A program made the position numbers and the translations under genes. The notes beneath the pieces are model-generated. The model worked only from the letters and a program-made list of their open reading frames with translations, had not been told where the DNA came from and did not search any database. 41,309 nucleotides of DNA, taken from the NCBI GenBank assembly GCA_016933455.1, contig JAFGAZ010000011.1, positions 1-41,309 of the forward strand, in the 5' to 3' direction. Below, piece after piece: positions 1 through 40,590 of the stretch. Each line of letters opens with the position of its first letter. The first letter of the stretch is position 1. The stretch comes from Candidatus Aenigmatarchaeota archaeon. GTDB lineage: Archaea > Aenigmatarchaeota > Aenigmatarchaeia > Aenigmatarchaeales > Aenigmatarchaeaceae.

Positions 1-2456
1 CCATTGTTTATCCAAGAAAGTGTTCTGATTTCGTTTGAAGTTGAGGAAGATTCTACTACAGAATCTCCAACATCAATATTGGGTCCTACCATCTTGTGGA
101 CAAAGTAAGGATACCAAGGCTTTTTATCGTCAGTGTTTACCATACCAAAGCCAAAACCGCCGGTGCTTTCCTTTTCTCTAGAGTTTTTGCTGCTGCCGTA
201 ATTGAAATAAACACGATAAGATATGTCGTTTTCAACCATGCTCTTTATTGACAAGGCGTTGTAAACTGCGCCGGCCATTTTCTGTATTCTTGGGTCCGTC
301 CCGCTTCCGAAAGCATAGTTAAGGTTGTCCTCAGTTTTTAGTACCTCCAGTTCCAGACCCCTTTTTTGTTTGTATAGCTGCCTTGATTTTGTTACACCGT
401 AATTTACAGAATCTTCTCCTATGTATTTTGTTTCTGCAAGATTGAATATTTTAGAATCGCTATCACTGTAGCTTCCTGTGGCATAGCCATGATAGCTAAT
501 AAAGTCAAGATCCTCCCCGTTTGATATGAATTCATCCAAAAGACCCTTCATTATCGAGGCGTCGTTTCCAAGTCTTACATTTGGATTGACACTTTTCATT
601 GATTTTGCAGCAGCGTTGTATAGGTTAACCAGATTTTCTATCTTTTGTGGGTCTCCTGGCCAGTCGCCGTTGGCTGCAAAGTAATGATAGGGCTCGTTTA
701 TTATTTCATAATATTTTACCTGATTCCATGGATATCCCTTGGATTTAAAGTGCTCGACCCATTTGGCTGTGTATGCTGCCCAATGCTCTTCTTCCACAAG
801 ACCTAGATGGTAGGGAAGGTCTCCCGTAGCAGAATCTATTGGCATGTTGGATGGAACCGAAGATATTTTGTTGTTGCTGTCGACAAAACTGTAGAAACCA
901 AGAACTATTAAAGGCTCTGCGCCTATGTCATATGTTTTTTGCACAAGACTGTCTATCTCGTCCCAGTCCCAGGAAACACAGTCCTTTCTAGCAACATCCC
1001 ATACGTCACATACCTTGTGAAGTCTGTGCTCAAAGAACCTCACCATTTCAATATTAGCATCTTCTGCAAGTTCTCTAAACGATGATGATTGTATCCAATC
1101 ATAGCCATCTCCCCATTCAAGTGCAATTCCCAAAGAAAGCTTGTTTTTTGTAATTTCATTATTGGGATTTATGTCAATATCAAAGTCTGCAGACAGTTTC
1201 GGATAATTGTCTGCTGGAGGTTGATATGGTAAAGATGTTTGTATGCATTCTCCTGTATAAGAGCTTCCAAACTGCAATTTACATGATGCAACGCAGCCTT
1301 GTGCATCCCAATCGTAATCTGTTGAATAAGAAGTCTCTTCGAAATAAGCCTTTATGCTGGTGCCGTCAAACATTGCGTCAAAGTTCTGAGTCTCATAGCT
1401 GTTTTTCAAATCCACACTGGTTCCGCCCCAGCTTGCAATATATTTTATAAATTCTCCGTTCCTTGTCTCCATGGTTACTTTTTCTCCCTCAGAAAAGTAC
1501 ATTGTCATGCTGTCCGAAGTGCATTCTGTAATGCCCATGGAATTTGTTATGCAAAATTCTCCTTCTCCTTCCACTGAAAATGTGTATTTCAAAAGCAGAT
1601 CGATTGGAGAGTATAAGTTGTTCGGATCTACCTTGAATTTCAATGTCAAATAATCATATGAAATGTCATTTCCTTCTATTTCTCTTGTTCCTTCGTCCGC
1701 TTTGAGAGGCACAAGACAATATCCTTGGCTTAATAGGCAAGATTTGTCTGTTATGGTAAAGTAAACAATTCCTTCCTTTTCTTCTACTTTTATCTCAAGA
1801 CCGCTGAATCTGGAATCAGCATTGAATTTATTTCTTATCAAATATGGTGCATCGAATCTTGTGTTATAGTCTTCTTCCTCCATTATTGCCCTTCCGGCTT
1901 CTGTTATTCTGAAATAGCTTGAATCTATTTTAGAATTAAACTTTCGGTGGTCAAGATAAATTTCTGCTGATATCGTTTTGTCGTTAACTGAAAAGCTGTT
2001 TGTGCCTTCGACAAAAAAACACTTTGACCCTTTTAATGTTTGGCAATCCTGCTCTTTGTAATTTAGAATATCCAGCGTTCCCGAAAGAAGATTCACAGTC
2101 TTTGAATATTCTATTTTTCCTGTGGGAAGATTTTCTAGTATCTTTTCCTCGAGCCTGCTTTCTATCGTGTATATGCTCGGATAGTTGATGTACCAAAGAG
2201 GTATTTCTTCAGAGTCCAAACCACCGGTCATACCCATATCGTATGCTGTTTTTTTGGATATTATCTCAACGCTCTGGTCGAACGCCTTTGCCCAGAACTC
2301 TGCTTGATTTTGGGCTGACAGTGCCTGGCCTCCCTTTTGCACATTCTCCATCTCGAAAGCCGATCCGAAAAAACCTCCGAAAGACGCGACAACTACGGCT
2401 ATCACTATGAGAAGCGTTCCCAAAACCGGTATTGTAAGTCCTTTTCTATTGTACAT
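1..2456 (-). CDS. Pilin-leader-anchored clan GH-A (GH39-like) glycoside hydrolase, C-terminus truncated by window edge
   Basis: Reverse-strand reading frame open from ATG at 2456 to base 1, not in the ORF track. I translated it as MYNRKGLTIPVLGTLLIVIAVVVASFGGFFGSAF..., then a beta-rich region, then ..KVCDVWDVARKDCVSWDWDEIDSLVQKTYDIGAEPLIVLGFYSF...VKYYEIINEPYHYF...(NEP at 690-698)...LEVLKTEDNLNYAFG (candidate nucleophile Glu at 330-332). Confidence 0.85.
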   Translation of the reverse strand, partial: MYNRKGLTIPVLGTLLIVIAVVVASFGGFFGSAFEMENVQKGGQALSAQNQAEFWAKAFDQSVEIISKKTAYDMGMTGGLDSEEIPLWYINYPSIYTIESRLEEKILENLPTGKIEYSKTVNLLSGTLDILNYKEQDCQTLKGSKCFFVEGTNSFSVNDKTISAEIYLDHRKFNSKIDSSYFRITEAGRAIMEEEDYNTRFDAPYLIRNKFNADSRFSGLEIKVEEKEGIVYFTITDKSCLLSQGYCLVPLKADEGTREIEGNDISYDYLTLKFKVDPNNLYSPIDLLLKYTFSVEGEGEFCITNSMGITECTSDSMTMYFSEGEKVTMETRNGEFIKYIASWGGTSVDLKNSYETQNFDAMFDGTSIKAYFEETSYSTDYDWDAQGCVASCKLQFGSSYTGECIQTSLPYQPPADNYPKLSADFDIDINPNNEITKNKLSLGIALEWGDGYDWIQSSSFRELAEDANIEMVRFFEHRLHKVCDVWDVARKDCVSWDWDEIDSLVQKTYDIGAEPLIVLGFYSFVDSNNKISSVPSNMPIDSATGDLPYHLGLVEEEHWAAYTAKWVEHFKSKGYPWNQVKYYEIINEPYHYFAANGDWPGDPQKIENLVNLYNAAAKSMKSVNPNVRLGNDASIMKGLLDEFISNGEDLDFISYHGYATGSYSDSDSKIFNLAETKYIGEDSVNYGVTKSRQLYKQKRGLELEVLKTEDNLNYAFGSGTDPRIQKMAGAVYNALSIKSMVENDISYRVYFNYGSSKNSREKESTGGFGFGMVNTDDKKPWYPYFVHKMVGPNIDVGDSVVESSSTSNEIRTLSWINN

Positions 2457-2991
2457 AAAAATCGAGTGTTACTTTTAGAGGAAGAGGAGTCTTTTTACTT
2501 AAACTGTCAAAAACTTCGGCATCTATGTAGATTGGTACTGACAATTTCCTAACCTCTGTTATGTCGTTTTTTCTATATCCTATCAGGCTTGAGCTTCTGG
2601 CAATAACTATACCATTTCCGTCTATGTTTAGTTCTATGATGTATGCTTGATTGGGTATCCACTGGTCGAAAACATCCTTTGTGCTTTTTTCCAGGTCAAC
2701 TATTCTTATGCCGTCAACGTACAAGTTGTCTAAATTTTCGTGATATGCTGCGTAAGCTAGTATCTTCTTGAACTGCATGCCTTCATAATCTGATTCTAGG
2801 TAGGAAAGAAGCATTGTCTCGTATTTGACAGGAGGGTATGTTGCATGCATCTGCATTTCATAGTCTATTGGTTGAGATGTAGGCAACTCTGCCGTGTTTA
2901 TTATGAAAATCACAAGTCCACCGAGAAGCGAACCTATGCCTATCATTATCAATACAGCAAACAACGAAGCTAAAAGTTCTACGCCCTTCAT
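2446..2991 (-). CDS. Pilin-like membrane-anchored protein
   Basis: MKGVELLASLFAVLIMIGIGSLLGGLVIFII: short KG leader plus one hydrophobic helix; 11-bp overlap with the downstream hydrolase start. Confidence 0.8.
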   Translation of the reverse strand: MKGVELLASLFAVLIMIGIGSLLGGLVIFIINTAELPTSQPIDYEMQMHATYPPVKYETMLLSYLESDYEGMQFKKILAYAAYHENLDNLYVDGIRIVDLEKSTKDVFDQWIPNQAYIIELNIDGNGIVIARSSSLIGYRKNDITEVRKLSVPIYIDAEVFDSLSKKTPLPLKVTLDFYVQ

Positions 2992-3009: not shown

Positions 3010-4230
3010 TCATGTACACAAATATCTTGCTCTATTGCAAGTGTGTCCGTAACCAAGGCAATTTATGCAGTCTTGGTCGTTTAGACATTCTACTATTCCC
3101 ATATTGTAATTTTCAGGAGAATTCAGTACCGGCCATCCATAATTATTATTGTCTGTATAGACTCCGGCGTAAGAATTCCAATTCCACCAATCATTAGGGG
3201 ATGTCAATTGGTCATGAGCATCCATTACGGTAACGTCGCATTCAATATAATATGAAAATGAGCCCGTATAAGTTCCTTTTGCAGGAATTGATACGAACTC
3301 GCTTCTGAGGTACGAATCCCTTTCCAGACATTGGCAAGTTGAACCGGCCTCTACATAGAAGCACCAAGGCAAATTCCCTGAGTTTACAATAGTATAACTA
3401 ATTGTTATAGTGTCGCTTCTTGCGTAAATCCCTCTTGGCAGAGTAAAATCGACACTGGCGCCGACCTCTTCGCATGTACCCTGATAACAAACAGTCCTTT
3501 CCCCTGAAGGTGTTCTGTATTGACACCTATGCCATTGCAAAGGTACATTGGGATTGTTTTGGTTTGTATACTGGCAGCTGCCCAAAGTATTGGTGTGTTT
3601 TATAGAGTTGGGAGTTTCTGACGAACAAGATAAAGGACTTGGACAGTCCTTTGGACAGTTGTTGTAATTTTCACCGTCCTCGCAGGCTCCGTTTGGACAA
3701 AGAGATGTTGGTTCTGGCTCTTCGTCTTGATCATCTTCAGAAATATCATACTCGCTTCCTACAAATATCCTGACATTTACTGGTACTATATCGTTTGTTC
3801 TTTTAAGAGAAGCTGGTAAATCGGTGTAATATGTAAGGGGCTTTTCTATGCATTCACCATCATTTGTAATATCTTCACATACTTCACCATTGCCAAAGGA
3901 ATAAAGAATTTCTTCGTTCCTGCTTATCATGACATATATGCCTTTCGAGTAATCGAGGCAGTCAATATTTTCGTTTTTAACATTCTCGTATTGCTGAATC
4001 TTTTCTTCAGAAAGAAGCCCCTTTACCGGATATTCGTTTCTTTCCTCGGCTATGCAGCTAGAAAGCACTATGTTTCCGACAACCAATGTTTCTCTTTCCA
4101 TTCTGTTCTGGGTGTAAATCAAGGTATAGTCGTTTAGGGCTAGAAATATTCCAAGAAGGACTATGGCTAAGAAAGCCGTTGATATTATTTTCATGAATGT
4201 TTCGCTTAGTGCGAATATGCCGCCCTTCAT
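3010..4230 (-). CDS. Pilin-like protein with Cys-rich ectodomain and Ig/CARDB-like beta region
   Basis: MKGGIFALSETFMKIISTAFLAIVLLGIFLAL leader; CPNGACEDGENYNNCPKDC motif; C-terminal CLNDQDCINC...C. Confidence 0.8.
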   Translation of the reverse strand: MKGGIFALSETFMKIISTAFLAIVLLGIFLALNDYTLIYTQNRMERETLVVGNIVLSSCIAEERNEYPVKGLLSEEKIQQYENVKNENIDCLDYSKGIYVMISRNEEILYSFGNGEVCEDITNDGECIEKPLTYYTDLPASLKRTNDIVPVNVRIFVGSEYDISEDDQDEEPEPTSLCPNGACEDGENYNNCPKDCPSPLSCSSETPNSIKHTNTLGSCQYTNQNNPNVPLQWHRCQYRTPSGERTVCYQGTCEEVGASVDFTLPRGIYARSDTITISYTIVNSGNLPWCFYVEAGSTCQCLERDSYLRSEFVSIPAKGTYTGSFSYYIECDVTVMDAHDQLTSPNDWWNWNSYAGVYTDNNNYGWPVLNSPENYNMGIVECLNDQDCINCLGYGHTCNRARYLCT

Positions 4231-4955
4231 TAAGCTCCCTCTATTAGCAGCTTGCAGCCGCCGCCTTCGTTAAATTTTTTGATTACCAAGGTTCCACCAA
4301 CACTATCAAACTTTACTGTGCTGAGACATTCCAAAAGCCTATAACAACCAATGTCTGATGTACAAGTGTCCCCTATTCCATAATCAATATCACATTTACA
4401 ATCATTTGAGCACTGGCCTGGACAATCGTTATCAGAAGGATGTATTATTTGCTCCTCTTCATCGTTTCCGGGATCACATTCCTCACCACCGTCTAGTACG
4501 CCGTTTCCGCAAGTTCCGTATGTGCTTTTGCAAAATCCCGCATCGCAGCTCAAGCCTTCGTAGCAGTCAGAATGGTATGTGCACCTATCGCCTATCAGGC
4601 CCCGGATTTTTGTGCAAGTCTTCACTATTCTGCAGTCTGTAAGAAATGGTTGCGGGTCTACCTCAGCTATATCGTTGCTCATATTAGGATCTATACGTAT
4701 AGTAGGATACGGCTCATCATCTATTATGATGGTATGTTTTATGTCTATTGGTATTCTTGCCTCGAAATCTCCAGGTGAGTATGAGGCAACTGTCAGGACG
4801 TTTCTAATGTTTTCCTGCAGATTGTTTGGCTCGATTTTTGTTAGAAAACCAAGGAAATTGTAAGCAATGCCCCTTCCGAAAACCGTTACTAGGACTATTA
4901 GTATAACAAACATTCCTACAATAAAGAGCAAAAAGTCTTCTGTTACCCCTTTCAT
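4230..4955 (-). CDS. Pilin-like protein with Cys-rich ectodomain (CGNGxxxxGEECDPGN motif)
   Basis: MKGVTEDFLLFIVGMFVILIVLVTVFG leader; CTYHSDCYEGLSCDAGFC and CGNGVLDGGEECDPGN motifs. Confidence 0.8.
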   Translation of the reverse strand: MKGVTEDFLLFIVGMFVILIVLVTVFGRGIAYNFLGFLTKIEPNNLQENIRNVLTVASYSPGDFEARIPIDIKHTIIIDDEPYPTIRIDPNMSNDIAEVDPQPFLTDCRIVKTCTKIRGLIGDRCTYHSDCYEGLSCDAGFCKSTYGTCGNGVLDGGEECDPGNDEEEQIIHPSDNDCPGQCSNDCKCDIDYGIGDTCTSDIGCYRLLECLSTVKFDSVGGTLVIKKFNEGGGCKLLIEGA

Positions 4956-4969
4956 TCATAATCACTTTT

Positions 4970-7900
4970 TTATTCACTCAAAGGCGCAGGCCTGCAAACC
5001 TCATTGTCACATACCCATCCTTCGTCACAATCTTCTTTATCCAGGCATCTGCTTATCCACAAACATTCGCTGGCTGCTGATTGCATGCACTTATCGTTGA
5101 GTATTGCTGCCTTTCTCCATGTCTCCGCTGCAGGCGTCTTTACAGGCCATGCCAATGAAGTATCACCTATAAGCGTCATGCTGTAACACCAGTCGTCTAT
5201 GTCAAAAATCTTGGATCCTACGTTTGTCAATTTATTTTTAAAAACTTTGTCTGAAAAACCTTTCCATACGCCTTTTAGTTTGTCCATTCTGGCTGCTGAT
5301 TTTGTTATGTCCTGAAAATGTGATAAAGCCCAAGGTGATACTGAAGATAATGCATCAATGCCGTCGCATATGTCCTCTGCTGCCTGGAAGTTCCAGTAAC
5401 CCCAGCCTTCGTTTTGTCTTTTGTATGTAGAATCCCTAAAGTCCTGTGTGGCCGCAACGACTTCTACAGTCAAAAGACCCATTGTCGAGTATTTGCATGT
5501 CTGCGAGCAACCTGAAGTTGCTCCCCATCCGCCTGATCCTGCGATACAACCGGCCATGCATACTCCAAATGCTCCGTAATATGCAATCGGGTTTGGAACA
5601 TTGTTTATATTAGATGAACCCCAGATATAGTCCTCGTCTGCGTAGCAGAAGTTCGGGGTGTCGACGCTGTCAAGCTGCACCTTTTTGTTTACAAGATTCC
5701 CGATTATCGGTACATCCTCGAGGAAAGGAACAGAAGAGTCAAAAACAGTCTGCTCGCATTCTCCTACGTCGCATTTCTTTGCAACTCCTGTCTTGTCGAT
5801 GTAGACGTAAACATTTTTATCTACATCGTTTTTCCAAACCTTTGCCATGGCAAAGCATGGGCTTACTACATAGAATCTAGGGTTTTCCTCTGGTGGCGAC
5901 GCTGTCAAAAGAATGGTGTTAACTCCTGAAGGAATCCTTTCCGTTATGTCAGGATTTTGTCTCCAAAGCTTAACTTCTATTGATTCCTCGACCTTGCTGT
6001 CCAAAAGATAAGCGCTTGCCGTTTCCGTTGGGCCGTCTGCAGCTCCCCTTTGAAGCTTGCATATCGAGTTTGAAGCGCATCCACCCTCCTTTATTTCAGT
6101 TGCCTTCTTTAGCGATTGTTCGACTGTATATGCGCCTGGTATTATGTTTAGTGGTGAGTATATTGGAGCTTCTCCTATTTTGTTTAGGTCAAGTAAAAAG
6201 AATTTCTTGCCTTTCTGATAGGCAAATGATGTTACCTTGAAAGCATCAGAATCTGCTAGATGAATTACAGGAGCTGATAGATACTTTATTATATTATCAG
6301 TAGAAATGGAATCAACGCCATAGTTTTTTGTGAACTGCGCCGTTATCATGTCGTTTTTTACCTTGTTTGCCTGACTAATTACTTTGTTGACGTTTAGATT
6401 TCCCTTTACTAAACTTTCCCTGTCAAAAAGGCCTTTCAAATGCATGCTAAGTTTTGCCTGCTCAAAGACTTCTTTTGCAGTCTCTTCTGAAACCCTTAAT
6501 GTATTTCCCGATTCATCCAAAAATCCAGAAGACATTACATCCATCCACTGACCTTTTACATCATCCCAATCGGAGAAACTTTTTATTATATCGTCGTAAG
6601 CTTTGATTTTTTCAGTTTCTGTTGTAAGTTTTTTTATGTTGTCAAACTGGTCCTTTAGATTTTTTGACATTGCCCTTGATGCAATGTCACCTGTTATAGC
6701 GTCTTGATGTCTTAGAACAAATTCAGCAAGATCTTGAGAATTCCTAAGCCTGACAACACTTTCTATATATTTTATGACATCCGCATCGGATAATTCGTCA
6801 ATATTGTCGAATGATTTTCCTGTGACCTTTTTTAAATTTGAAAGTAATTTTTCTCCTGTTTCATCCTCTTTCTTGACTATGTCTATTATACCCTTTCTTA
6901 TTTCATCCTTGTTTTTGATTGCAACTTCCCTTACATTTTGGAACTTTGCAGGAAGACTTTTTGATGATATCTCATCGCCATAGTTGAATACCTTGTTAAA
7001 TCCTCCTTCTACCCTGCTTACTCCCCCTCTTAGCCTGTTATACACACTTCTTATGTTGTCTATGATATTGGTCTTAAGCCAGCTGTTTTCCCACCATGTC
7101 GTTACTTTTGTTTTTGCAGGTACCCATTTAGCCTTGACGCTAGTAACGGTGTCGTCTAGCCAGCTAAATCTAGGCTGTATTACGATGGCATCTGAAAACT
7201 TTTTGGCATTCTCCTCGCTAAGTGTAATCTTGAGATTTTCGGCAAGGCCGTTAAATTCCCTTTTTAATACTGGCTTGCCTCCTTTTGTTAGTATGTCTCC
7301 ATCAGGTCCGACTTCGTACATTCCCATCTTTCCTAGAGCATTTGTTATGTCTTTTGTGTCTTTGATGCCCTTATCTTTAATATCGTTTATAGTTCCCTTG
7401 AGTTCTTTTGAAGCATAATTGATATTGATTATATCGTCGATCTGGTCTGCTACTTCATCACCTTTCTTACCGCTAACGGAGTTTCTTAGGAAAAATTTTA
7501 TTACTCTGTTGTTTTTGATATTGTCTATTGCCTTTCTGATCTTAATCGGTGTTAAATCCAACGATACGCTTCCTATTGTTTTTATCAGACCAGTAAGACC
7601 TCCGGTTGATTTTATTGATTTTCTTACAAGGCCCCCTGCGTACGAAGCCGCCTTGAATCCGTATTTCATTGTGGCATAGTTTAGTATTGCCTGACCAGCT
7701 CCCCCGCTAAATGGTTGAGATTCTCCCCATGATATGCTTCCTTCTGGTGGGAATATCTCGTATGTTAGAATGTATGTTGGAAGCTGTGAGGAAAACCACG
7801 CAACTGATGTTTTTGCGCTGTCAACTTCGCATAGTCTTATAGGAACTGTTACGTAATAATCTCCCATCTCGTCTGGGGGCACACCCTCACCATACCATGG

Positions 7901-8074
7901 CTCTACATCGGTTTCTAGTGATGCCCTGTTTATGGCATCAACCAATTCAATCGCTGTTGTATTGGCAAGTCCATCACATTCCGAATTGCCAAATATACTA
8001 AAGAAAAGCGAGACTAGAGCTACGAATATTACCACTGATAAAACTAAAGATATTGCCATTGAAGTTGATACCAT
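4970..8074 (-). CDS. Very large membrane-anchored protein with long Lys-rich, Cys-free helical core; unknown function
   Basis: 1034-aa ORF; N-terminal hydrophobic helix MVSTSMAISLVLSVVIFVALVSLFFSIFG; C-terminal CLDKEDCDEGWVCDNEVC module. Confidence 0.8.
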   Translation of the reverse strand: MVSTSMAISLVLSVVIFVALVSLFFSIFGNSECDGLANTTAIELVDAINRASLETDVEPWYGEGVPPDEMGDYYVTVPIRLCEVDSAKTSVAWFSSQLPTYILTYEIFPPEGSISWGESQPFSGGAGQAILNYATMKYGFKAASYAGGLVRKSIKSTGGLTGLIKTIGSVSLDLTPIKIRKAIDNIKNNRVIKFFLRNSVSGKKGDEVADQIDDIININYASKELKGTINDIKDKGIKDTKDITNALGKMGMYEVGPDGDILTKGGKPVLKREFNGLAENLKITLSEENAKKFSDAIVIQPRFSWLDDTVTSVKAKWVPAKTKVTTWWENSWLKTNIIDNIRSVYNRLRGGVSRVEGGFNKVFNYGDEISSKSLPAKFQNVREVAIKNKDEIRKGIIDIVKKEDETGEKLLSNLKKVTGKSFDNIDELSDADVIKYIESVVRLRNSQDLAEFVLRHQDAITGDIASRAMSKNLKDQFDNIKKLTTETEKIKAYDDIIKSFSDWDDVKGQWMDVMSSGFLDESGNTLRVSEETAKEVFEQAKLSMHLKGLFDRESLVKGNLNVNKVISQANKVKNDMITAQFTKNYGVDSISTDNIIKYLSAPVIHLADSDAFKVTSFAYQKGKKFFLLDLNKIGEAPIYSPLNIIPGAYTVEQSLKKATEIKEGGCASNSICKLQRGAADGPTETASAYLLDSKVEESIEVKLWRQNPDITERIPSGVNTILLTASPPEENPRFYVVSPCFAMAKVWKNDVDKNVYVYIDKTGVAKKCDVGECEQTVFDSSVPFLEDVPIIGNLVNKKVQLDSVDTPNFCYADEDYIWGSSNINNVPNPIAYYGAFGVCMAGCIAGSGGWGATSGCSQTCKYSTMGLLTVEVVAATQDFRDSTYKRQNEGWGYWNFQAAEDICDGIDALSSVSPWALSHFQDITKSAARMDKLKGVWKGFSDKVFKNKLTNVGSKIFDIDDWCYSMTLIGDTSLAWPVKTPAAETWRKAAILNDKCMQSAASECLWISRCLDKEDCDEGWVCDNEVCRPAPLSE

Positions 8075-16710: not shown

Positions 16711-18618
16711 TTAAGCTTCGCAAAAAGACATGATGCCTGAAATGTAGTTTATGTCTTCCAATTTCCCATCGCTATTGATATCTCCGGGTTTTATGTCCTT
16801 TCTTATCGCGACCTTTATTCCCAATTTACCGCTGCATATGTTATCGTCGCCACAATAGAATCTTATTGACCTTGTTCTGTCCCACTCTGAACCGGAGTTT
16901 ATTATTTCGTTGTATTCTGACCTCCAGCATTCCTGATCCATCAAAACGCCATTTGTGGGCTTAAATACTGCGTCTATGAATGACCCATCACTATCCGCGG
17001 TCAATGTAAAGCTTTCCGAGTCTATCGTTTCCCTTCCCCTATATTCGAACCTGTCAAAGTAGAAACCTTCATCTGGAACCGCAAAGACATCTACTTGCTG
17101 GTTTTCTGCCAACTCCAAAGTTAAGCTGTCACTAACTATAGCTAGTGGTGCGGGGATAGAATTCATGTAAATATGTCTTCTCACTGTCACACTTCCGGAT
17201 CCCTGAGCCACTCCAAAAGTATATTTCAGCATGTCGTCCTCTTCTCCCTCAAAATAAACTTTCATGAAACCGTCTGCGTCCTCTATCTCCTTTGAAAAAT
17301 CTTGATTAATAGTTCCGAGGTTTGTTTCTGTCCTAACCAAATCCCCATTGAACTCGAAGGTTGCATAGTCTCCGACATCTAGTTTTGCGACAATGCTGCT
17401 TGTGGTGCATTGGTCGGGCTTTTCTTCAACCTTGACACAAACTTCTCCCGAACCTTGGATTATTGCGATGTCAATTATTACTTTATCGTCTCTTGTGTAT
17501 ACATCTGATATTTTCTGAACATCCCAATGAGGATGTGCGAACGTGTAACCCTTTGTTTTTACGTTGAAATAAAGGCCTTCCTTTATTGCGTTGATTATTG
17601 TTTCTACGTCATAATCTTGGTCTAGATCGATTTCATGATAATTCCAATAGTATACCTCTTTTGAATATCCCGGCATAGTGCTTGCCTTTTCAGAAAAGTC
17701 TTGGATGTAATATGGAAGCTCAAAGGGATTTATGTCAAGCTTTCTAAATATATTGAATATTCCTATCGAACTCTGGTCATCATTTTCTGCCAATGCCGGC
17801 CTTGGGCACATGTAAACGTTGAATTTACAAATACCGTTTACCGATTCCGCACTTCCGACATACATGTTTAGCATCCCCTCTTTACTGTATGCGTTATAGA
17901 AAGCATTCTCGTTTGTTATAGATGACAGCGCATTTAATAGCTGCCATCCGGAGAGATATCTACTTCTACTTCCGTCCCAAAAATGAGAATAATCACCGTT
18001 TTCTAGTTCCATATGGTCTGTGGAATAAAGAACGTTTATTTTTCTAGACTCTGGATTTATTTCCACTATACGCCCTATAACACCTTTGTCAGAAAAGAAT
18101 GGCAGAATATTGTTCGAGTTATAGACATATCTGCAGTCGTCAAAGTAAAGATAAGAAGTATCGCTAATACCCCCATAATCCTCAATACCAACTATTTCGT
18201 TTTCTTCTATTGGCTCGAATCTACAAACTACCTGGTTGAGACCTTCTGCAATCTCTATTTCTATGTCTTCTTCTGCGCAGTCGCCAATAAATGGAAAATC
18301 CATATTATCTTGTGGATTTTGTTTGTATGATATTCTGTCTATTCTGTAAGGCTTTCCTGTTATAATGGCGTTCTTTATGGCTGTCTTTAGGTTTTCGCAT
18401 TCGTCGTAATCCGAAAATGAAATTGCATTTTCATCAAACAGATATGAATCGTATTTGAAGCTGTCTTCCAAGTCAAGTGGATTTGTGTCTACAATCTCAG
18501 TGTTTATTGTTTCTGTTGTCGAAGATTTGCTTAGAATGTTTATCATTATCATGATAAACGCGACCATGGCGATGATTGATATTAATATTATGATTGTCTC
18601 GTTTAGGCTTGCTTTCAT
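16711..18618 (-). CDS. Large pilin-anchored protein with beta repeats and C-terminal dockerin-like motif
   Basis: 635 aa; MKASLNETIIILISIIAMVAFIMIMINIL helix; CKFNVYMCPRPALAE module; ends KPGDINSDGKLEDINYISGIMSFCEA. Confidence 0.8.
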   Translation of the reverse strand: MKASLNETIIILISIIAMVAFIMIMINILSKSSTTETINTEIVDTNPLDLEDSFKYDSYLFDENAISFSDYDECENLKTAIKNAIITGKPYRIDRISYKQNPQDNMDFPFIGDCAEEDIEIEIAEGLNQVVCRFEPIEENEIVGIEDYGGISDTSYLYFDDCRYVYNSNNILPFFSDKGVIGRIVEINPESRKINVLYSTDHMELENGDYSHFWDGSRSRYLSGWQLLNALSSITNENAFYNAYSKEGMLNMYVGSAESVNGICKFNVYMCPRPALAENDDQSSIGIFNIFRKLDINPFELPYYIQDFSEKASTMPGYSKEVYYWNYHEIDLDQDYDVETIINAIKEGLYFNVKTKGYTFAHPHWDVQKISDVYTRDDKVIIDIAIIQGSGEVCVKVEEKPDQCTTSSIVAKLDVGDYATFEFNGDLVRTETNLGTINQDFSKEIEDADGFMKVYFEGEEDDMLKYTFGVAQGSGSVTVRRHIYMNSIPAPLAIVSDSLTLELAENQQVDVFAVPDEGFYFDRFEYRGRETIDSESFTLTADSDGSFIDAVFKPTNGVLMDQECWRSEYNEIINSGSEWDRTRSIRFYCGDDNICSGKLGIKVAIRKDIKPGDINSDGKLEDINYISGIMSFCEA

Positions 18619-20314: not shown

Positions 20315-22393
20315 TTATGTCGGGATTGCCAATAGCGCTTCTATTGGTCCTCCAAACATTGCATATGTCAAAAACCAGCTGAGTATGTATATCGTTATGG
20401 CAATCATTGTTATCATCCAAATATTTTGTCTAACGCCCACAGGGTCGTCGCCATACATAACGCCATTTAGGAATATTGAAAGCAAAACGGCAGTTTCAAC
20501 CATATATATGCCAATAACTAGTTGGAACATAGAAGGAGTTATTGGCAAAGAACCCCCGCTTCCCATTGCCCAAGGCAATAGCATGACTGTTTGATATGTG
20601 TTCATATCGCCTGAGGCAGCTGTGAGGTTCCCCATCGCTGACCCCAGATTAGTGAGTATTCTAAGAATTATGACAGCCATGGTAAGTGTAACTCCTGAAA
20701 CCAGCGGGGCTAGAAACATGGCCAAGAACTTCATGCTTGTTACGGTTTCCCCTAATATTTCATTTATCTCTTCTTTCACTTCATGCACATCTTTTAGATA
20801 TCTAGATATAGTTACCATGGAATTGGCTGCCGTATTGATGCTTTTCTTTGACGATTGCATTAGGGTTTGCATTATAGATTGTATTAGGTTTGATGGATAG
20901 TACCAAAGAGCTCCGACTTTCTTGTCAAACAAAGCCTGATCAAAGGTATAACCGAATTTCTTCATGTTAAGGCTTATTATGTCAAAGAATTTTGATATCC
21001 TCATCTCCTTTAGATTGGCTCTTGCCTTTTCAATAGCAAGTTCAAGCGGAAGCCCTCCTGAAACCGCGTTCCCTAGCTGGAAAAGAGCTGTTGCGAACTC
21101 GTCTTCTATTGTTTCGATATCCTTTCTTATCTTTATCTTCTGGTAGCTGTCCAAAAACGCATAAGTTACAACAGAAAACGTTATACCTAATATTATCAAT
21201 AGAGAGTAGTTAACAGAGTTATATACAACAGGGTCTCCAATTCCCACAAAACCCAATATTATGAACGGTATTGCAATTGCTAAAGATATTGGAAGTATAG
21301 GTATCATCTTGCTTCCGACCTCAAATTTTCCCATCAAAGGAACATTTTTGGCCTTTGATATGTCAGGGGGTGAGAATGTGGGAGGTTTTGACGAAAGCAA
21401 ATAGCTGACCACAAAATATAGACCTATGGGAAGCATTACGTCGTAGCCAAAGAATACAAAAGACGGTTTTACTGTGTCTGATATGAATATCATTATGACA
21501 GGAAACAGTATAAGCCCCATTACAGGCAATAGAACTCCCATGGCGTATATTAGCATCATGGGCATTCTAAGATCTGCTGCATAATGCCTTGCCCTTTCTC
21601 TTGTGCCATTAAGTATGACGTTTATTGTTTCTTCATATACAGTTTCTCTTCTTTTTTCTTCAACAAGAGAACCTCTAAGCAGGTTCAAAGCCTCTGAGAA
21701 TTCCCTGTTTTTGTCCTTCCATCTGTTGATATAGTCTATGAGGGCAAAATCCGCAGAAGGATATTTTCCAGTTTCAATGTCCCAAAGCAGTTTTCTCAAA
21801 TCCCATGCTAGAGGGCCGTTTAGGTACTGTGAGGCGAACTTTACAGCTCCTTCAAGATTTGGAGAAGCTCTCATGTATATTACCATGTAAAGAATTGCCA
21901 AAACGCTGTCAGACGACATTTTCATTCTCATGGATTTTGCCTGATACTCTGGATAATTGTAAAAATAGTAGAAAACACCTGCAACTGCTAAAAGACCGAA
22001 TATTCCAAAAATCATTCCGATTCCCAATGCTATAGAGAGTGTTACTGCTATCAAAGAAACAACTGTTGAAAGAAATGCCAAAGAATATACGCCTTTAGGG
22101 GTGGCGTTAATATAAGCAGCATGTATAGAATTTTCAATAGTTGTAGCAGTATTTTGATTTGGTTTTATCGGGAATATTTTTTCAGCAAAAAAACATGCTT
22201 TTTCATATAAAGTTTCTGGTTTTTGTTTTATTTCTTCCATAAAGCTTTTGTATTCTGATGTGTATGGAACTAATTCCCTTTCTTGTTCAGGCATTTGTAT
22301 ATTGTTTGCTTTAAGGGCTTTTTGCATTTGCTCTTTCTTTAGTTTTCTTGCTCTTTCAAGAGCTTCATCTCTTTTGTTCTTTTTTTCAAACAT
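20315..22393 (-). CDS. Type II/IV secretion system platform protein (FlaJ/TadC-like, apparently two T2SSF-type halves)
   Basis: 692 aa; polytopic; PNLEGAVKFAS...LAWDLRKLLWDIETGKY and a second half ...ALFQLGNAVSGGLPLELAIEKA...; abuts the ATPase gene. Confidence 0.85.
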   Translation of the reverse strand: MFEKKNKRDEALERARKLKKEQMQKALKANNIQMPEQERELVPYTSEYKSFMEEIKQKPETLYEKACFFAEKIFPIKPNQNTATTIENSIHAAYINATPKGVYSLAFLSTVVSLIAVTLSIALGIGMIFGIFGLLAVAGVFYYFYNYPEYQAKSMRMKMSSDSVLAILYMVIYMRASPNLEGAVKFASQYLNGPLAWDLRKLLWDIETGKYPSADFALIDYINRWKDKNREFSEALNLLRGSLVEEKRRETVYEETINVILNGTRERARHYAADLRMPMMLIYAMGVLLPVMGLILFPVIMIFISDTVKPSFVFFGYDVMLPIGLYFVVSYLLSSKPPTFSPPDISKAKNVPLMGKFEVGSKMIPILPISLAIAIPFIILGFVGIGDPVVYNSVNYSLLIILGITFSVVTYAFLDSYQKIKIRKDIETIEDEFATALFQLGNAVSGGLPLELAIEKARANLKEMRISKFFDIISLNMKKFGYTFDQALFDKKVGALWYYPSNLIQSIMQTLMQSSKKSINTAANSMVTISRYLKDVHEVKEEINEILGETVTSMKFLAMFLAPLVSGVTLTMAVIILRILTNLGSAMGNLTAASGDMNTYQTVMLLPWAMGSGGSLPITPSMFQLVIGIYMVETAVLLSIFLNGVMYGDDPVGVRQNIWMITMIAITIYILSWFLTYAMFGGPIEALLAIPT

Positions 22394-24625
22394 TCATATA
22401 CCCGCGTAAGCCTTGAACCACTCAAGCCAATCTTTGAAAACTTCATCGCTGTTTATGTGCCCAAATTCCTTTCTGGATTTTTCGCACAAAGTATGAAACA
22501 TCTGGTTGACCTTGACCGTAGTTTCAGCTTCGAGCAGTTCAAGCTTGTTGTTTTTTTCTGCAATGCTGACAATCGTTTCCAGAATTCTTGCACGAAGCTT
22601 GATGTTGTCCCAGATATAGTCCCATCTGCCAGCCCAGCCAGGTACATTGGAAGCTACCTGGTTTAGGATCACTGATTCGCCGTTGAGAAGAGTATCAGTC
22701 GGCTTTAGCTTGTCGGCAGACGAGTCGTATTCCATAAGGTTCACAAAGCCGCCCTCATCATCCGGGTCTTTCTTCCAGTGCTTTCTGACCTCTGTTATTT
22801 CTGTCACTCTTCTAAAGGTCCTAAGGCCGTCGGAAGTTTTCAACTTGTTACACACAACAATAAAGTCAACTGCCTTGAAGCTGGTGGCAGGAACGCCCAA
22901 GTCGTTTATTATCCTGTCAAAAACTCCGTAGGCAGAGTCTCCGTGCACAGTTCCGGCAACAATGTTGGCCATGGCTCCTATTCTCATGGCTTCGAATAAT
23001 GCTTTGGCTTCTGTTGAACGGATTTCTCCAATAAATAGGCATGAATCCCCCAAACGCAAAGATGTTCTTATGACTTCCTCTGCTGGCAATTCCAGTTCAA
23101 CACGGGTTATAACTGACCTTGACTTTAGTCTTTCTATGTTATAGCCAAGAGCCCTAACCTGCTCAACAGGAAGTTCCAGGGTGTCCTCTGATGTGACTAT
23201 TCTATAGTACGGCAGAACCTGAAGCATCATGCTTCCAAGCAATGATGATTTTCCAGCTCCCCTTGTTCCTGCCACAAGTACTGTTCTTCCGTATGATGTC
23301 ACAAACCACAAAAGCCCTCCAAATAATGGATCGAAATATCCTTCTTTTATGAAGAGGGGAAAAGTCCAGGGCTTGAACCTGTGCCTTCTTAGGGCAAAGC
23401 CAAGACCGTCGGGTGATAGCCTTGGGTTTATGGCTGCAACTCTGGCAACACCTCCTGGTATTATGAACTCAGAGTCCAGTACAGGGTTTGCCTCGTCCAG
23501 GGGCCTTCCAGACATTAATTTGAAACGAGTTGCCCACCTGTCCCCATCCTCTCTTGTAGGAACCAGGTTGGTTTCGCATTCCTCATAATCTTGATGGTAA
23601 ACGTAGACAGGAATATTTCCCATAGGCGAGTTGATGTAAACGTCTTGTATCTTGTCGTCTTTTAGCAGAACTTCCAGTATGCCAAGGCCCGCAGTGTATC
23701 TTGTTAGTATGCTTGCCAACTTTTCCATTTGCCCCGGTTCGAAATTCTTGCCAGCCTCTTCTGCCAGATCCCTTAGCAAATCCAAGGAAAGGGTGTGGAA
23801 AATTTCCCTCATTCTTGCCTGTTCTGTTATTTCCAATTCCTTGGGTCTTCTTTCCTCAAGAATTCTTCTAGCTGCGTCAAGAATGTTGTATTCGTCCTCG
23901 TTTAGCTTGAACTCTGGGGGAACTGCGTGGTAGATGTATCTGACCTTGCCTGGAACCTTGAAAATTTCAACATCAGTATCGCCCACCTTGTATCTTGCCA
24001 CTGTTTCGCCTGGCGGCGGCTGGGCCATGAATTTTGTGTACATAAAGTTCGGCCTTATGGTGGGCTTGAAGAATCTTCTGTACAAGGACCTGTCCCCTAT
24101 GTGATAGCCTGAGATATAGGGCTTGGATTTGTCTATAAGCTCGGCGTTGTCAAGCATGTCCTTTAGAGGCAAAAGGCAGTTTTCAAGATAGTGCTTTATG
24201 CAGTCAACATACTCGTCAGAAACCATCTTTGTCTTAAGGTGCCTAATTTCCCTTATCAGATTGACATATGCTCCTATCGGGTCTCCCCTTAGCTGAGAAG
24301 TCACAAGGTCACGTATCCAGCCGTACCACTGTGCCAAATACTTTGAGCACTGGTTAACAGCTATGTTTCTAACAGAGAGCAGCTTCCTTTCCTTTACTGC
24401 CACTGTGATTATATTGGCAATTTCCTTTAGCATTCTTGTCTGGTCATAGTCGTACTCGTATTCCCTGGTCTCTGCCAAAACAACTGACACGATTCTTTTC
24501 TCTTCTATTAGCTTTTCTATGACACGCGCCATCACAACGTCAGAATCCTCTACAGTAAACCCGAAAACCGACCCCAAACAGTTCATTCTTAGAACGCCGT
24601 CTTTTACATCTGTCTCAAAAACCAC
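22394..24625 (-). CDS. Type II/IV secretion ATPase (FlaI/TadA/VirB11-like) with extended N-terminus
   Basis: Walker A VAGTRGAGKSS, Walker B-like CLFIGEIRS, GTVHGDSAYGVFDRI; GTG start with upstream AGGTG. Confidence 0.92.
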   Translation of the reverse strand: MVFETDVKDGVLRMNCLGSVFGFTVEDSDVVMARVIEKLIEEKRIVSVVLAETREYEYDYDQTRMLKEIANIITVAVKERKLLSVRNIAVNQCSKYLAQWYGWIRDLVTSQLRGDPIGAYVNLIREIRHLKTKMVSDEYVDCIKHYLENCLLPLKDMLDNAELIDKSKPYISGYHIGDRSLYRRFFKPTIRPNFMYTKFMAQPPPGETVARYKVGDTDVEIFKVPGKVRYIYHAVPPEFKLNEDEYNILDAARRILEERRPKELEITEQARMREIFHTLSLDLLRDLAEEAGKNFEPGQMEKLASILTRYTAGLGILEVLLKDDKIQDVYINSPMGNIPVYVYHQDYEECETNLVPTREDGDRWATRFKLMSGRPLDEANPVLDSEFIIPGGVARVAAINPRLSPDGLGFALRRHRFKPWTFPLFIKEGYFDPLFGGLLWFVTSYGRTVLVAGTRGAGKSSLLGSMMLQVLPYYRIVTSEDTLELPVEQVRALGYNIERLKSRSVITRVELELPAEEVIRTSLRLGDSCLFIGEIRSTEAKALFEAMRIGAMANIVAGTVHGDSAYGVFDRIINDLGVPATSFKAVDFIVVCNKLKTSDGLRTFRRVTEITEVRKHWKKDPDDEGGFVNLMEYDSSADKLKPTDTLLNGESVILNQVASNVPGWAGRWDYIWDNIKLRARILETIVSIAEKNNKLELLEAETTVKVNQMFHTLCEKSRKEFGHINSDEVFKDWLEWFKAYAGI

Positions 24626-35860: not shown

Positions 35861-36799
35861 ATGCTATTTACTGACCTTTTGTTTTTCATGCTTTCGTGCG
35901 CAGGCCTTGCAGTAAGCGGACACTTTGTTGTAAAGAGCCTGATAAAAGTTGCCAGGTTTTATCATCTAAGAGAATTCGTGGTGGGCTTTGTTTTAATGGC
36001 TGTCATGACATCCATGCCGGAGTTGTTTGTGGGCATAATGTCTGCTCTTAGCGGTTTTTCCGGCATATCCTTGGGCGATATTCTGGGCGCCAATATTGTT
36101 AATCTGACAATTGTTGTTGGCATAACGTCGCTTTTGGGAAAAAGAATAAAGATAGAAAGCGAGATAGAAAAAAGGGACGTGTTCTACACCGCCCTTATAG
36201 CAATGCTGCCCATATTCCTCTTTATTGACAACGGTCTTTCTAGGTTCGATGGCATCTTGCTTGTGGGATCTTTTTTCCTATACCTGTTTAGGCTAATTTC
36301 GCAAAGGTCGCATTTCCGCAAGATAATGGCTGACCATATTTCTAGAAAAATGATGGAAAAGGAGGTTGTCCTTTTCGTTTTCAGCCTCTTTGTCTTGCTT
36401 TTGAGCGCAAGATTCGTTGTGGAGTTTGCAATACCCCTTGTGTCGGAGCTTAGTCTGTCTCCCTTGCTAATAGGCCTAACCATTGTCTCAATAGGCACGA
36501 CATTGCCAGAACTTTTTTTCAATACGAATTCTGTTCTAAAGGGGCATTATGGCATGGCAATGGGCGACCTTCTTGGAAGCGTTGTAGCGAACTCGTCTCT
36601 GGTTTTGGGTATTGTTTGCATAATATCTCCAATAGAAGCTTCCATAATTTCCTTTACCATAGCGTCAGGTTTCTTGGCGCTTGTTTTGACGCTTTTTATT
36701 ATTTTCTCTAAAACAGAAAGAGAGATAACCTGGAAAGAGGGCGTTGTTCTTTTGATGCTGTATTTTGTTTTCGTTATAACAAGCCTTATTTTCAGGTGA
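35861..36799 (+). CDS. Sodium/calcium exchanger (CaCA) family transporter
   Basis: Two alpha-repeat motifs: MPELFVGIMSALSGFSGISLGDILGANIVNLTIV and TTLPELFFNTNSVLKGHYGMAMGDLLGSVVANSSLVLG. ORF track starts at a TTG (35846); ATG at 35861 preferred. Confidence 0.9.
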   Translation: MLFTDLLFFMLSCAGLAVSGHFVVKSLIKVARFYHLREFVVGFVLMAVMTSMPELFVGIMSALSGFSGISLGDILGANIVNLTIVVGITSLLGKRIKIESEIEKRDVFYTALIAMLPIFLFIDNGLSRFDGILLVGSFFLYLFRLISQRSHFRKIMADHISRKMMEKEVVLFVFSLFVLLLSARFVVEFAIPLVSELSLSPLLIGLTIVSIGTTLPELFFNTNSVLKGHYGMAMGDLLGSVVANSSLVLGIVCIISPIEASIISFTIASGFLALVLTLFIIFSKTEREITWKEGVVLLMLYFVFVITSLIFR

Positions 36800-37722
36800 T
36801 AGTTAACAATAAGAGGCGGGTTTGGCAAAATAAGTTTATGTTGCAGGTTTTTTTCGCTGCATTAATATCCCTGCTCGGGCTCTCGTTTTCCGTTCATTCG
36901 TTTTTTTACGAGAAAAAGAACTTTATTCTGATAATATCGCTGATGATTTTTTCCATCACTTCTTTGTTCTACTGGTACATCTCGGTTTTTGTGCTCATAC
37001 TTTTTGCTTTCTACAAACACTATGATTTTGGCGAGTTTGCCAGCCTTAACATGTTTTCCGCTGTTTTGCTGTCTTGGTTTTTCCTAAATCTGTTTCAGAC
37101 AAAAATAGCAATCCCGTTTTTTCTAATAGCGATGCTGTGCCTTGTCTTGATGTCTATACTTTCCATATTCGGCATATTCGAAAATCGGCTGAAAAGATAT
37201 CTCATGGTTTCCAATTTCATACAGATACTTTTTGTTGTGTTGGATTTGTCTGTTACAATGATTAAAGGCGAGATGGGAATTCTTAGCGTCATACAGATAT
37301 TCAACTACACCTTCACTGGTTTGCTGTTCTTCCTAACGCTTTGGATATTTGGCAGAAAGAAGACTTTCATCCACGAGCTCGAGGGCTCTTATTTCCAAAG
37401 CAGGTCAAATGATATCTTTGCCACCATCGCGTGCCTTTCTTTGGCAGGCCTTCCTGCTTTCAATATGTTTGTTTCGGAATGGTTCTTGTTTACTGGCAGT
37501 TTTATTTTAACTCCCATCATAACAATACTTGGAATCTTTATTGCGCTTTTGCTTTTCATAATGTATTACAAGATAGTTTACGTTCTGCTTGTGGGAGAGG
37601 GCAGGCAAAAGAGCATACCCGAGCCCATTACGGTCGTGAACGGTCTGCTTGCTATTACTTGCGTTATTTTGGGAATACTTCCGAGCTTACAAATTGAGCT
37701 TTTGAGTTTGGTGCTTGCATGA
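36796..37722 (+). CDS. Short antiporter-like membrane subunit of group-4 hydrogenase (NuoL/M/N, MbhH/EchA-like)
   Basis: LKRYLMVSNFIQ and ACLSLAGLPAFNMFVSEWFLF motifs; only 308 aa; GTG start overlapping the upstream stop (ATG at 36838 is an alternative). Confidence 0.78.
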   Translation: MIVNNKRRVWQNKFMLQVFFAALISLLGLSFSVHSFFYEKKNFILIISLMIFSITSLFYWYISVFVLILFAFYKHYDFGEFASLNMFSAVLLSWFFLNLFQTKIAIPFFLIAMLCLVLMSILSIFGIFENRLKRYLMVSNFIQILFVVLDLSVTMIKGEMGILSVIQIFNYTFTGLLFFLTLWIFGRKKTFIHELEGSYFQSRSNDIFATIACLSLAGLPAFNMFVSEWFLFTGSFILTPIITILGIFIALLLFIMYYKIVYVLLVGEGRQKSIPEPITVVNGLLAITCVILGILPSLQIELLSLVLA

Positions 37723-37880
37723 AGAAGAAAAACAAGATCGACATTTACATGGGCGGAGAAAGAGACCCCGCGAAGATAATCATACCAAAGGACCTTGGCA
37801 AGTTCTTTGACAAGAAAAGAATAATTTTGGTTTTTGTCATACTATTGTCAATGCTGCTAATTGCAGGTGTTAGCATATGA
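37719..37880 (+). CDS. 53-aa single-helix membrane subunit within the hydrogenase operon
   Basis: Translated by hand: MKKKNKIDIYMGGERDPAKIIIPKDLGKFFDKKRIILVFVILLSMLLIAGVSI; overlaps both neighbours by 4 nt; missing from ORF track. Confidence 0.75.
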   Translation: MKKKNKIDIYMGGERDPAKIIIPKDLGKFFDKKRIILVFVILLSMLLIAGVSI

Positions 37881-38314
37881 AGATGTTAAAAAAGTCCCCG
37901 TGGGTTAGCAACTATGACGCCGGGGGTTGCAACGGCTGCATACTCGAGATATTTGCCCTGATAACTCCAAGATACGACATTGAAAGGTTCGGGTGCCAGC
38001 TAAAAGAAAGCGCAAGGCATGCTGACATTTTGCTGGTTAGCGGCATTGTAAACAACCAAAGCAAGGAAAGGCTAAAGACCATATACGACCAGATGGCAGG
38101 GGACAAGAAGGTTATAGCAATAGGTTCGTGCGCAATATCCGGCGGGCCTTTCAAGGACTGCTACAATTTCGCAGGGCCGGTTGACAAGATAATACCAGTT
38201 GACATGTACATACCGGGCTGCCCCCCAAGGCCGGAAGCCATAATGGATGGCATACTAAAGCTGCTAGGTTTTAAAGATGATGAAGGTAAGAAGCAAGATA
38301 AAAAAAGGGCTTAG
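37877..38314 (+). CDS. [NiFe] hydrogenase small subunit (NuoB/MbhJ-like)
   Basis: DAGGCNGCILEIFALITPRYDIERFG...IGSCAISGGPF...VDMYIPGCPPRPEAIMDGI. Confidence 0.92.
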   Translation: MKMLKKSPWVSNYDAGGCNGCILEIFALITPRYDIERFGCQLKESARHADILLVSGIVNNQSKERLKTIYDQMAGDKKVIAIGSCAISGGPFKDCYNFAGPVDKIIPVDMYIPGCPPRPEAIMDGILKLLGFKDDEGKKQDKKRA

Positions 38315-38579
38315 GCTAATAGCCATAGTCTGCAGACAAGACGACGGCTTTAGCATTGACTATCATTTCGATAGCAAGGGAGTTATCAGCACTGTCAGTG
38401 TCAAGGTTCCAAATGACGACAGGCAGGTCGAGAGCATAACAGAAGACTATCCTAGCGCCGATTATTATGAAAGGGAGATACATGACTTTTTCGGTGTCGA
38501 GTTCGTGGGCAATATCAACCTTCATCTCAAGCTGTTCCTTCCAGACAACTACAAAGGAGAGCCGCCAATGCTAAAGTGA
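38277..38579 (+). CDS. NuoC-like hydrogenase subunit (MbhK-like)
   Basis: ITEDYPSADYYEREIHDFFGVEFVGNINL matches the NuoC signature; a second ATG at 38280 is an alternative start. Confidence 0.88.
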   Translation: MMKVRSKIKKGLRLIAIVCRQDDGFSIDYHFDSKGVISTVSVKVPNDDRQVESITEDYPSADYYEREIHDFFGVEFVGNINLHLKLFLPDNYKGEPPMLK

Positions 38580-39754
38580 TGAAAATGCACGAGATAACAC
38601 ACGACTATACCCTGCCAATAGGTCCGCAGCACCCAACGCTCAAGGAGCCCATGTGCCTAAGAATCAGTCTTGACGGCAACACAATAAAGGATGTCAAGAT
38701 AAGGATGGGCTACACGCACAAGGGAATAGAAAAGTTGATGGAGGGGAAAAATCCCGACTCTGCCTTGTACACATCCCAGAGGATATGCGGCATATGCTCG
38801 TCTGCGCATGAGAATGCCTATTGCATGACAGTTGAGGGAATTCTAAAATACGATCCTGAAGAAAGAGTGAAGCTGATTCGGGCCCTTATGATGGAGCTTG
38901 AAAGATTGCACAGCCATATTTTATGGCTAGGTGTCATTGCCCATGAGATAGGGTATGAGACCATGTTCATGTATTTCTGGAGGGAAAGAGAGAAGATAAT
39001 AGATGTTTTCGAGAAAATAACAGGCGGAAGGGTGCACCACAATTTCAACAAGATAAAGACCGTTCGCTTTGATTTGGAAGAGGGCAACAAGAAATTCATT
39101 ATTGATAGGATAGACAGCGTTGAGAAAAGCATTGCAAACTACATGAAGGATCTAACAACAGACAGGGTGATAGCTTCAAGGCTTAGGGGCGTTGGCATAA
39201 TAACAAAGGCTGATGCCAAAAGATACAGCCTTGTCGGTCCTTGCGCAAGGGCCAGCGGGGTTAGGTGCGACATAAGAAAGTTCGACCCTCCGTTTGGCAT
39301 ATACAGGAAACTTGATTTCAAGGAGATCATAACTGACAACGGCGATTCTTTCGACAGGACATATGTCAGGGTTGCCGAGGTTTTGGAGTCTTGCAAATTG
39401 GTAAGGCAGATTCTTAACATGCTACCAAGCCAGCAGATACCAAAGTTTGTTATAACCAATGTTCCTGACGGCGAGGGTCTTGGTAGGGTCGAGGCGCCAA
39501 GGGGGGAACTTTTCTACTATATGAAATTCAAGGACGGCAAGATAGAAAGAGTAAAGATGAGAACCCCGACCTTTGCTTACCTTAAGATCGCAGAAAAAAT
39601 ACTTTTGGAAAGAAAGATAGGAGACATACCCGTTATAATGGGTTCTTTGGACCCCTGCTTTAGCTGCCTTGAGAGGGTGCTTGTCGCAAAAGACGGCAAG
39701 GTGGAATCCAACTGCGAATCAGAGTTTAGGAGGAAGTACGTATGTACGAGATAG
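38576..39754 (+). CDS. [NiFe] hydrogenase large subunit, group 4 (NuoD/MbhL-like)
   Basis: GIEKLMEGK...QRICGICSSAHE near the N-terminus and DPCFSCLER near the C-terminus: both CxxC metal-ligand pairs intact. Confidence 0.94.
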   Translation: MMKMHEITHDYTLPIGPQHPTLKEPMCLRISLDGNTIKDVKIRMGYTHKGIEKLMEGKNPDSALYTSQRICGICSSAHENAYCMTVEGILKYDPEERVKLIRALMMELERLHSHILWLGVIAHEIGYETMFMYFWREREKIIDVFEKITGGRVHHNFNKIKTVRFDLEEGNKKFIIDRIDSVEKSIANYMKDLTTDRVIASRLRGVGIITKADAKRYSLVGPCARASGVRCDIRKFDPPFGIYRKLDFKEIITDNGDSFDRTYVRVAEVLESCKLVRQILNMLPSQQIPKFVITNVPDGEGLGRVEAPRGELFYYMKFKDGKIERVKMRTPTFAYLKIAEKILLERKIGDIPVIMGSLDPCFSCLERVLVAKDGKVESNCESEFRRKYVCTR

Positions 39755-40590
39755 TCTTCTTTTTTCTTGTGCCTTTCATTGCATTGTTTTACGAGGGCAT
39801 TCTAAGAAAGCTAAACGCCAAGTTCCAAAACAGGGCAGGCCCACCGATCGTCCAGCCCTTTTATGACATAATCAAGCTTTTCGAGAAAAAGCTCCTGAAA
39901 ACCCAGAACGATCCTTTTTTCAGGCATGCCCCGCTTCTTTATTTTGTTTCTGTATTTGCTTTGTTTTTGTTTGTCCCGTTTTCATTACTTAGCTTTAGCT
40001 ACGATTTCATACTCTTGCTTTATTTGACAATTCTTGCCAGCTCATTTTACGTTCTTGCAGGCCTTTCGTCGGACAATCCGTTTTCCATTATAGGCTCGAT
40101 GAGGGAGATGATTCTCATGGTAGTTTACGAGATAACGCTTGTCATAACTGTCGTGACCTTCATGCTTCATGCTAATGTGATTTCTTTTTCTGCTTTGCAA
40201 AGCAGCATGGTGATATTTGCTCTGCCCATATCCTCGATATGCTTAGGCCTTATCTCCATGCTCGAGGTGCATGTGACGCCTTTTGACACCACAGAAGCCC
40301 CGACAGAGATAATGGGCGGGAGCAGGACAGAATACAGCGGCAAGAACCTGGCTTTGATGAATCTTGCCATGTCAATGAAGAGGCTTTTCTTCATCTTCTT
40401 TTTGCCGATGCTTCTTTTTGGCAACAGCCTTGTCATGCTTTTTGTTTCAAGCATCTTGTTTTTGTTTCTCTACGGCTTGGCGCAGGCCACAACTTCCAGG
40501 TTCAGGGTTGACCAGGCTTTCAAGTTCTACCTGGTTGTCATGATATTCGCATTGGTTGAATTTGTTCTGGTCATGAGGGGAATTATATGA
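39742..40590 (+). CDS. NuoH-like membrane subunit (MbhM-like)
   Basis: GPPIVQPFYDIIKLFEKK...VTPFDTTEAPTEIMGGSRTEYSG. Confidence 0.92.
   Translation: MYEIVFFFLVPFIALFYEGILRKLNAKFQNRAGPPIVQPFYDIIKLFEKKLLKTQNDPFFRHAPLLYFVSVFALFLFVPFSLLSFSYDFILLLYLTILASSFYVLAGLSSDNPFSIIGSMREMILMVVYEITLVITVVTFMLHANVISFSALQSSMVIFALPISSICLGLISMLEVHVTPFDTTEAPTEIMGGSRTEYSGKNLALMNLAMSMKRLFFIFFLPMLLFGNSLVMLFVSSILFLFLYGLAQATTSRFRVDQAFKFYLVVMIFALVEFVLVMRGII

Follow-up and report, generated by a model that had tools for sequence, protein, structure and literature searches.

How small symbiotic archaea recognise, attach to or enter their hosts is a question on which the gene at the end of a pilus-like locus in a Candidatus Aenigmatarchaeota archaeon may bear: could a pilin-like protein of this organism carry a glycosidase? 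The window analysed here is the entire contig C19 (JAFGAZ010000011.1, 41,309 bp) of assembly GCA_016933455.1, a genome (G000) of 694 kb in 21 contigs that is 89% complete. The genome is archaeal by its diphthine synthase (TIGR00522, 216.9 bits, above cut-off), and no archaeal small subunit (SSU) rRNA was found in the assembly. Its size and its genes suggest that it belongs to the DPANN group. We consider it reasonably probable that the protein encoded at 3..2456 on the minus strand belongs as a modular minor pilin to an archaeal type IV pilus-like machine and presents a glycosidase of the glycoside hydrolase family 39 (GH39) type. On this best reading, a design principle known from bacteria (Raynaud 2021) is found in an archaeon, with a predicted GH39 enzyme as the module; no enzymatic pilus subunit for small symbiotic archaea turned up in the literature searches of this analysis.

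A single frame from prepilin leader to GH39-like domain

The gene is one open reading frame (ORF) on the minus strand (2456..3), with an ATG start and 818 codons without a single stop. Since the window is the whole contig and the gene runs past its end, the ORF is open at the 3′ side, and 818 amino acids (aa) of the protein are in hand. A sequence-only reading of this DNA had claimed a reverse ORF with a MYNRKG leader and two glutamate motifs, and the ORF was found to contain both, in a frame that is continuous from the leader to the predicted catalytic barrel. Residues 1–23 comprise MYNRKG followed by LTIPVLGTLLIVIAVVV, thus a class III type leader with a hydrophobic stretch directly after RKG. 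Cleavage is predicted after G6 (residues 1–6, 2439..2456), and K5, G6 and P10 are invariant across homologues, in agreement with the prepilin-type leader proposed earlier. The leader forms the start of a conserved pilin-like core (residues 1–276, 1629..2456), which is followed by an InlB-B-repeat-like beta module (residues ~289–377, 1326..1592), a Cys-containing linker of low model confidence that matches no family (residues ~378–418, 1203..1325), and a GH39-like (beta/alpha)8 catalytic domain (residues 419–818, 3..1202).

The catalytic domain matched PF01229 (Glyco_hydro_39, E=4.3e-8) with 32.8 bits for the whole protein and 35.2 bits for the domain, against a Pfam cut-off of 26, and a PDB sequence search returned matches to GH39 beta-xylosidases only (E ~1e-6). 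In this search E588, part of an NEP motif (residues 587–589), and E709, part of the motif KTEDN (residues 707–711), were aligned with the NEP and TEW glutamates of solved GH39 beta-xylosidases; the two residues are 121 positions apart, and E584, N587, E588, H656, Y658 and E709 are all invariant in a 48-row GH39 alignment. An AlphaFold2 model of the domain built on that alignment (mean pLDDT 64.7, pTM 0.73) contains eight barrel strands (β1 440–444, β2 469–474, β3 514–519, β4 582–585, β5 628–632, β6 652–658, β7 704–711 and β8 743–746); E588 immediately follows strand 4 and E709 lies within strand 7, so that the model reproduces the (beta/alpha) order and the glutamate positions expected by the sequence-only reading. 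The top 10 Foldseek matches in the PDB were all GH39 entries (best E 5.9e-15), and these matches and the model are supporting rather than independent evidence, as the underlying alignment consists of GH39 sequences. The sequence evidence confirms the assignment as a predicted, divergent clan GH-A catalytic domain that is GH39-like at the level of Pfam. An identity as GH44 was rejected (13.5 bits versus a cut-off of 25.1).

The domain is like the GH39 beta-xylosidases of Caulobacter (CcXynB2, 4ekj/4m29) and Thermoanaerobacterium (XynB, 1px8) in its (beta/alpha)8 barrel, the NEP acid/base glutamate after strand 4, the nucleophile glutamate of strand 7, and the His and Tyr of strand 6. It differs from these enzymes in having TED for TEW, the tryptophan being replaced by D710, and N-x-G-S-S for the D-x-F-E-E loop of beta-xylosidase-type GH39 (residues 752 and 754–756), in its identity of 20–28% to aligned GH39 proteins, and in being fused to a pilin-like anchor, whereas the beta-xylosidases are free enzymes. 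To judge from the residues, these changes in the substrate pocket lower the case for a beta-xylosidase, but not that for a GH39-like domain; the sequence-only reading had named xylosides, uronides and host glycans as candidate substrates. They would also fit a non-catalytic, lectin-like barrel that binds glycan for adhesion in the manner of the spacer and binding modules on homologous cores, as would the non-enzymatic nature of other modules found on the core (CARDB, PKD). However, the domain keeps its two catalytic glutamates as well as the His and Tyr of strand 6, for which a domain that only binds would have no use, and such a barrel seems quite improbable to us.

A pattern scan of GTDB genomes gave 80 bacterial GH39 loci with 20–28% identity over the aligned segments, a sample that leans towards GH39 because the patterns were derived from a GH39 alignment. 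In a tree the domain had no close relative and a very long branch of 9.6 changes per column, and its placement is unreliable. A recent transfer from the sampled bacterial GH39 proteins is unsupported by this tree, and so is a common origin with the GH39-like proteins found elsewhere in the class (G145, G099, G093 and G096), with which the domain did not group. One of these, in G145 (L128:874-2877), is a LamG-GH39 protein with both domains above the Pfam cut-off and a C-terminal tail that by eye contains FN3 and a type I dockerin, which is unusual in a small archaeal genome. Stand-alone, lipoprotein-like clan GH-A enzymes that are not fused to a pilin were seen in two genomes of the same class (L014:7501-8565 and L130:895-2286, in G096 and G093).

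A conserved core with varying C-terminal modules

The pilin-like core is homologous to entire proteins encoded at the equivalent locus position in relatives (349–351 aa in G003, G011 and G001, 341 aa in G014), and these homologues end at residue 276 of the window protein, where YDYLTLKF is aligned with YDYLKLKF. Homologues were detected with a core profile in 18 of the 160 genomes of the phylum, with the strong ones confined to the same family and order. The N-terminal half was poorly predicted in the full-length structure, and modelling of the core from its single sequence gave pLDDT values mostly of 25–50, with a helix at residues 9–41 in this low-confidence model. The core homologue of G005 has just 159 aa (L013:1601-2080) and is perhaps truncated or frameshifted.

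What follows the core varies between genomes. In G004 the core carries CARDB and DUF4215, all above the Pfam cut-offs, in G007 it carries PKD_4 (above cut-off), and in G002 about 95 additional residues without a family, while the window protein continues with the InlB-like module, the Cys linker and GH39. The InlB-like module resembles part of a 635-aa protein of the same locus (16711-18618; BLASTP 2e-5, 27% over 79 aa), which itself has a weak match to Flg_new_2 below cut-off. Two neighbouring proteins of 406 and 241 aa (3010-4955) likewise have C-terminal additions that are lacking in relatives. GH39 was found on the core in the window's genome only (1/160), and PF01229 reached its cut-off in three of the 160 genomes including this one, the other two cases being separate proteins. 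The pattern suggests that the core is a conserved carrier with swappable modules in neighbouring lineages, and that the filaments have an exchangeable working end. The evidence for such a carrier goes beyond the sequence-only reading, and with the core there is a definite gene to compare between genomes.

The position of the GH domain at a contig end, and the copies without GH39 in relatives, are also what an assembly or gene artefact would give, with a pilin gene and an unrelated GH gene brought together by a chimeric contig end. Against this, the fusion is in frame through an added module similar to a second protein encoded in the locus, the GC content of third codon positions is 0.38 in both the core and the GH segment, codon usage is native and GC is uniform across their junction, and the sampled bacteria contained no close GH relative as a source of contamination. 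A chimera or foreign insert was rejected on the native codon usage and GC together with the likeness of the spacer to a repeat in another pilus-locus protein, and we regard an artefact as very improbable. The gene also shares 11 bp with the neighbour upstream, an arrangement similar to that of relatives.

In relatives, the core homologue is followed by small MKG(V/M)ELPIN pilins and, in several, by an Alba-like gene. An Alba gene was not found in the G000 assembly, and the small pilins had only weak and no clear matches outside C19; the gene could therefore not be completed. A scan of the genome contigs with the single protein gave no matches. The missing Alba gene and the lack of clear small pilins are in keeping with a gap directly after the GH39-pilin gene. 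In G001 and G007, ORFs that by eye are like LAGLIDADG homing endonucleases or inteins (L012:16481-17290 and L121:731-1666, respectively) lie beside the end of the pilus locus, adjoining or inside the Alba-like gene.

The pilus-like locus and a proposed presentation of the glycosidase

The minus-strand genes from position 24625 downwards form one locus, which encodes a pilus assembly ATPase (T2SSE, FlaI/TadA/BasE-like, 22394..24625; PF00437 49.8 bits, cut-off 24.9, with NCBIfam relatives below cut-off), a platform protein (T2SSF, 20315..22393; PF00482 31.9 bits, cut-off 25.2, 53% identity to the G011 copy) and about 13 prepilin-like proteins with N-terminal hydrophobic helices, many of which start with MKG. 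The GH39-pilin gene is the last of this locus within the contig, and the gene order is kept in genomes of the same family and order, where it ends with the homologue of the GH39-pilin protein. A prepilin peptidase is encoded elsewhere in the genome (Peptidase_A24, PF01478, 46.8 bits, G000:C20). Tethering to a pilus, as had been proposed by the sequence-only reading, is strongly suggested by the gene content of the locus together with this peptidase. The locus ATPase is of the same superfamily as FlaI of the archaellum and BasE of the bindosome (NCBIfam 126.8 bits for FlaI, 57.7 for BasE), but it scores far below both family cut-offs, and no archaellum or sugar-binding subunits were identified here.

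Some archaeal surface proteins that are not filament subunits have class III leaders too, and the N-terminal helix alone could anchor the present protein. The prepilin-type helix may be no more than the anchor of a surface ectoenzyme that stays outside the filament and supplies the cell with sugars. Against this, the core is conserved within a pilus locus whose gene order is fixed, and non-enzymatic core homologues occupy the same place in the locus without GH39, which makes an ectoenzyme unlikely in our judgement.

For the modular minor pilin that we favour, the following route can be proposed. The type IV leader peptidase of the genome would cut the leader, after which the hydrophobic helix and conserved core would let the protein take its place, probably at the tip of the filament, among the other prepilin-like subunits encoded in the locus. 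The InlB-like spacer would hold the GH39-type barrel outward, where it may cleave a beta-linked glycan by a two-glutamate mechanism, with E588 as acid/base and E709 as nucleophile. By analogy with known pili we infer that the glycosidase is presented on the filament, and the likely benefit would be that, where contact is made with a partner cell or surface, its glycan layer is opened locally. More specifically, the last large minor pilin may serve at the tip as a carrier whose C-terminal module can be exchanged, and here the module would be an active glycosidase that opens the glycan coat of a partner on contact, a filament-borne tool for episymbiosis; we put this forward tentatively and as rather doubtful. 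A role in partner contact is plausible by analogy, since episymbiosis in Saccharibacteria is reportedly driven by type IV pili (PMC12206443).

In bacteria, modular type IV pilins onto which binding domains and predicted peptidases are grafted occur widely, in 264 architectures, and are probably exposed at the tip (PMC8179133, PMC9934059). PilB (vWA) and PilC (lectin module) of Streptococcus sanguinis likewise consist of a class III leader, a pilin moiety and an additional C-terminal domain, and in bacteria as here the module varies and the pilin part is kept (Raynaud 2021, PMC8179133; PMC9934059). The present protein differs in being archaeal, in its larger core, which no Pfam model matches, and in its predicted GH39 glycosidase, whereas main-text passages on the bacterial pilins name modules for binding and predicted peptidases (S74, M26) but no glycosidases. 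Tad/Kil pili likewise have several minor pilins beside one ATPase and platform set, their conserved carrier bears exposed domains that vary, and interchangeable tips were described on the Tad-like pili of Myxococcus (PMC12075869). This likeness of architecture is to a bacterial predation system, and the passages describing it contain no glycosidase module.

Several points weigh against the modular minor pilin with a GH39-type enzyme. The F-E-E loop on the substrate side and the TEW tryptophan of aligned GH39 enzymes are replaced, the GH domain is just 20–28% identical to anything found, and its model is of moderate confidence and carries the fold bias of its alignment. In addition, the fusion is known from one genome only, the 3′ end of the gene is missing, and the protein may not enter a filament and could remain a membrane-anchored ectoenzyme. 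The glycan cut by the GH39 version would point to the partner surface or environment acted on, so this form of the protein offers a directly testable version of the question.

Neighbouring genes

The minus-strand gene overlapping the start of the GH39-pilin gene encodes a prepilin-like protein of 181 aa (2446..2991) that is syntenic in relatives. It is preceded by genes for two further prepilin-like proteins, one of 406 aa (3010..4230, minus strand), of which residues 1–158 are conserved and match relatives of 143–157 aa, followed by a C-terminal addition of ~250 aa, and one of 241 aa (4230..4955, minus strand) with a Cys-rich C-terminal part, matched by relatives over residues 1–103 at most. 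The Cys-rich stretch of the latter is by eye like DUF4215-type repeats, with no Pfam match. A large pilus-locus protein of 1034 aa (4970..8074, minus strand) is syntenic in nearly all relatives checked. On the plus strand, positions 36796-40925 hold a set like a group 4 membrane-bound [NiFe] hydrogenase or Nuo, with antiporter-like, NuoB-, NuoD-, NuoH- and NuoI-like subunits.
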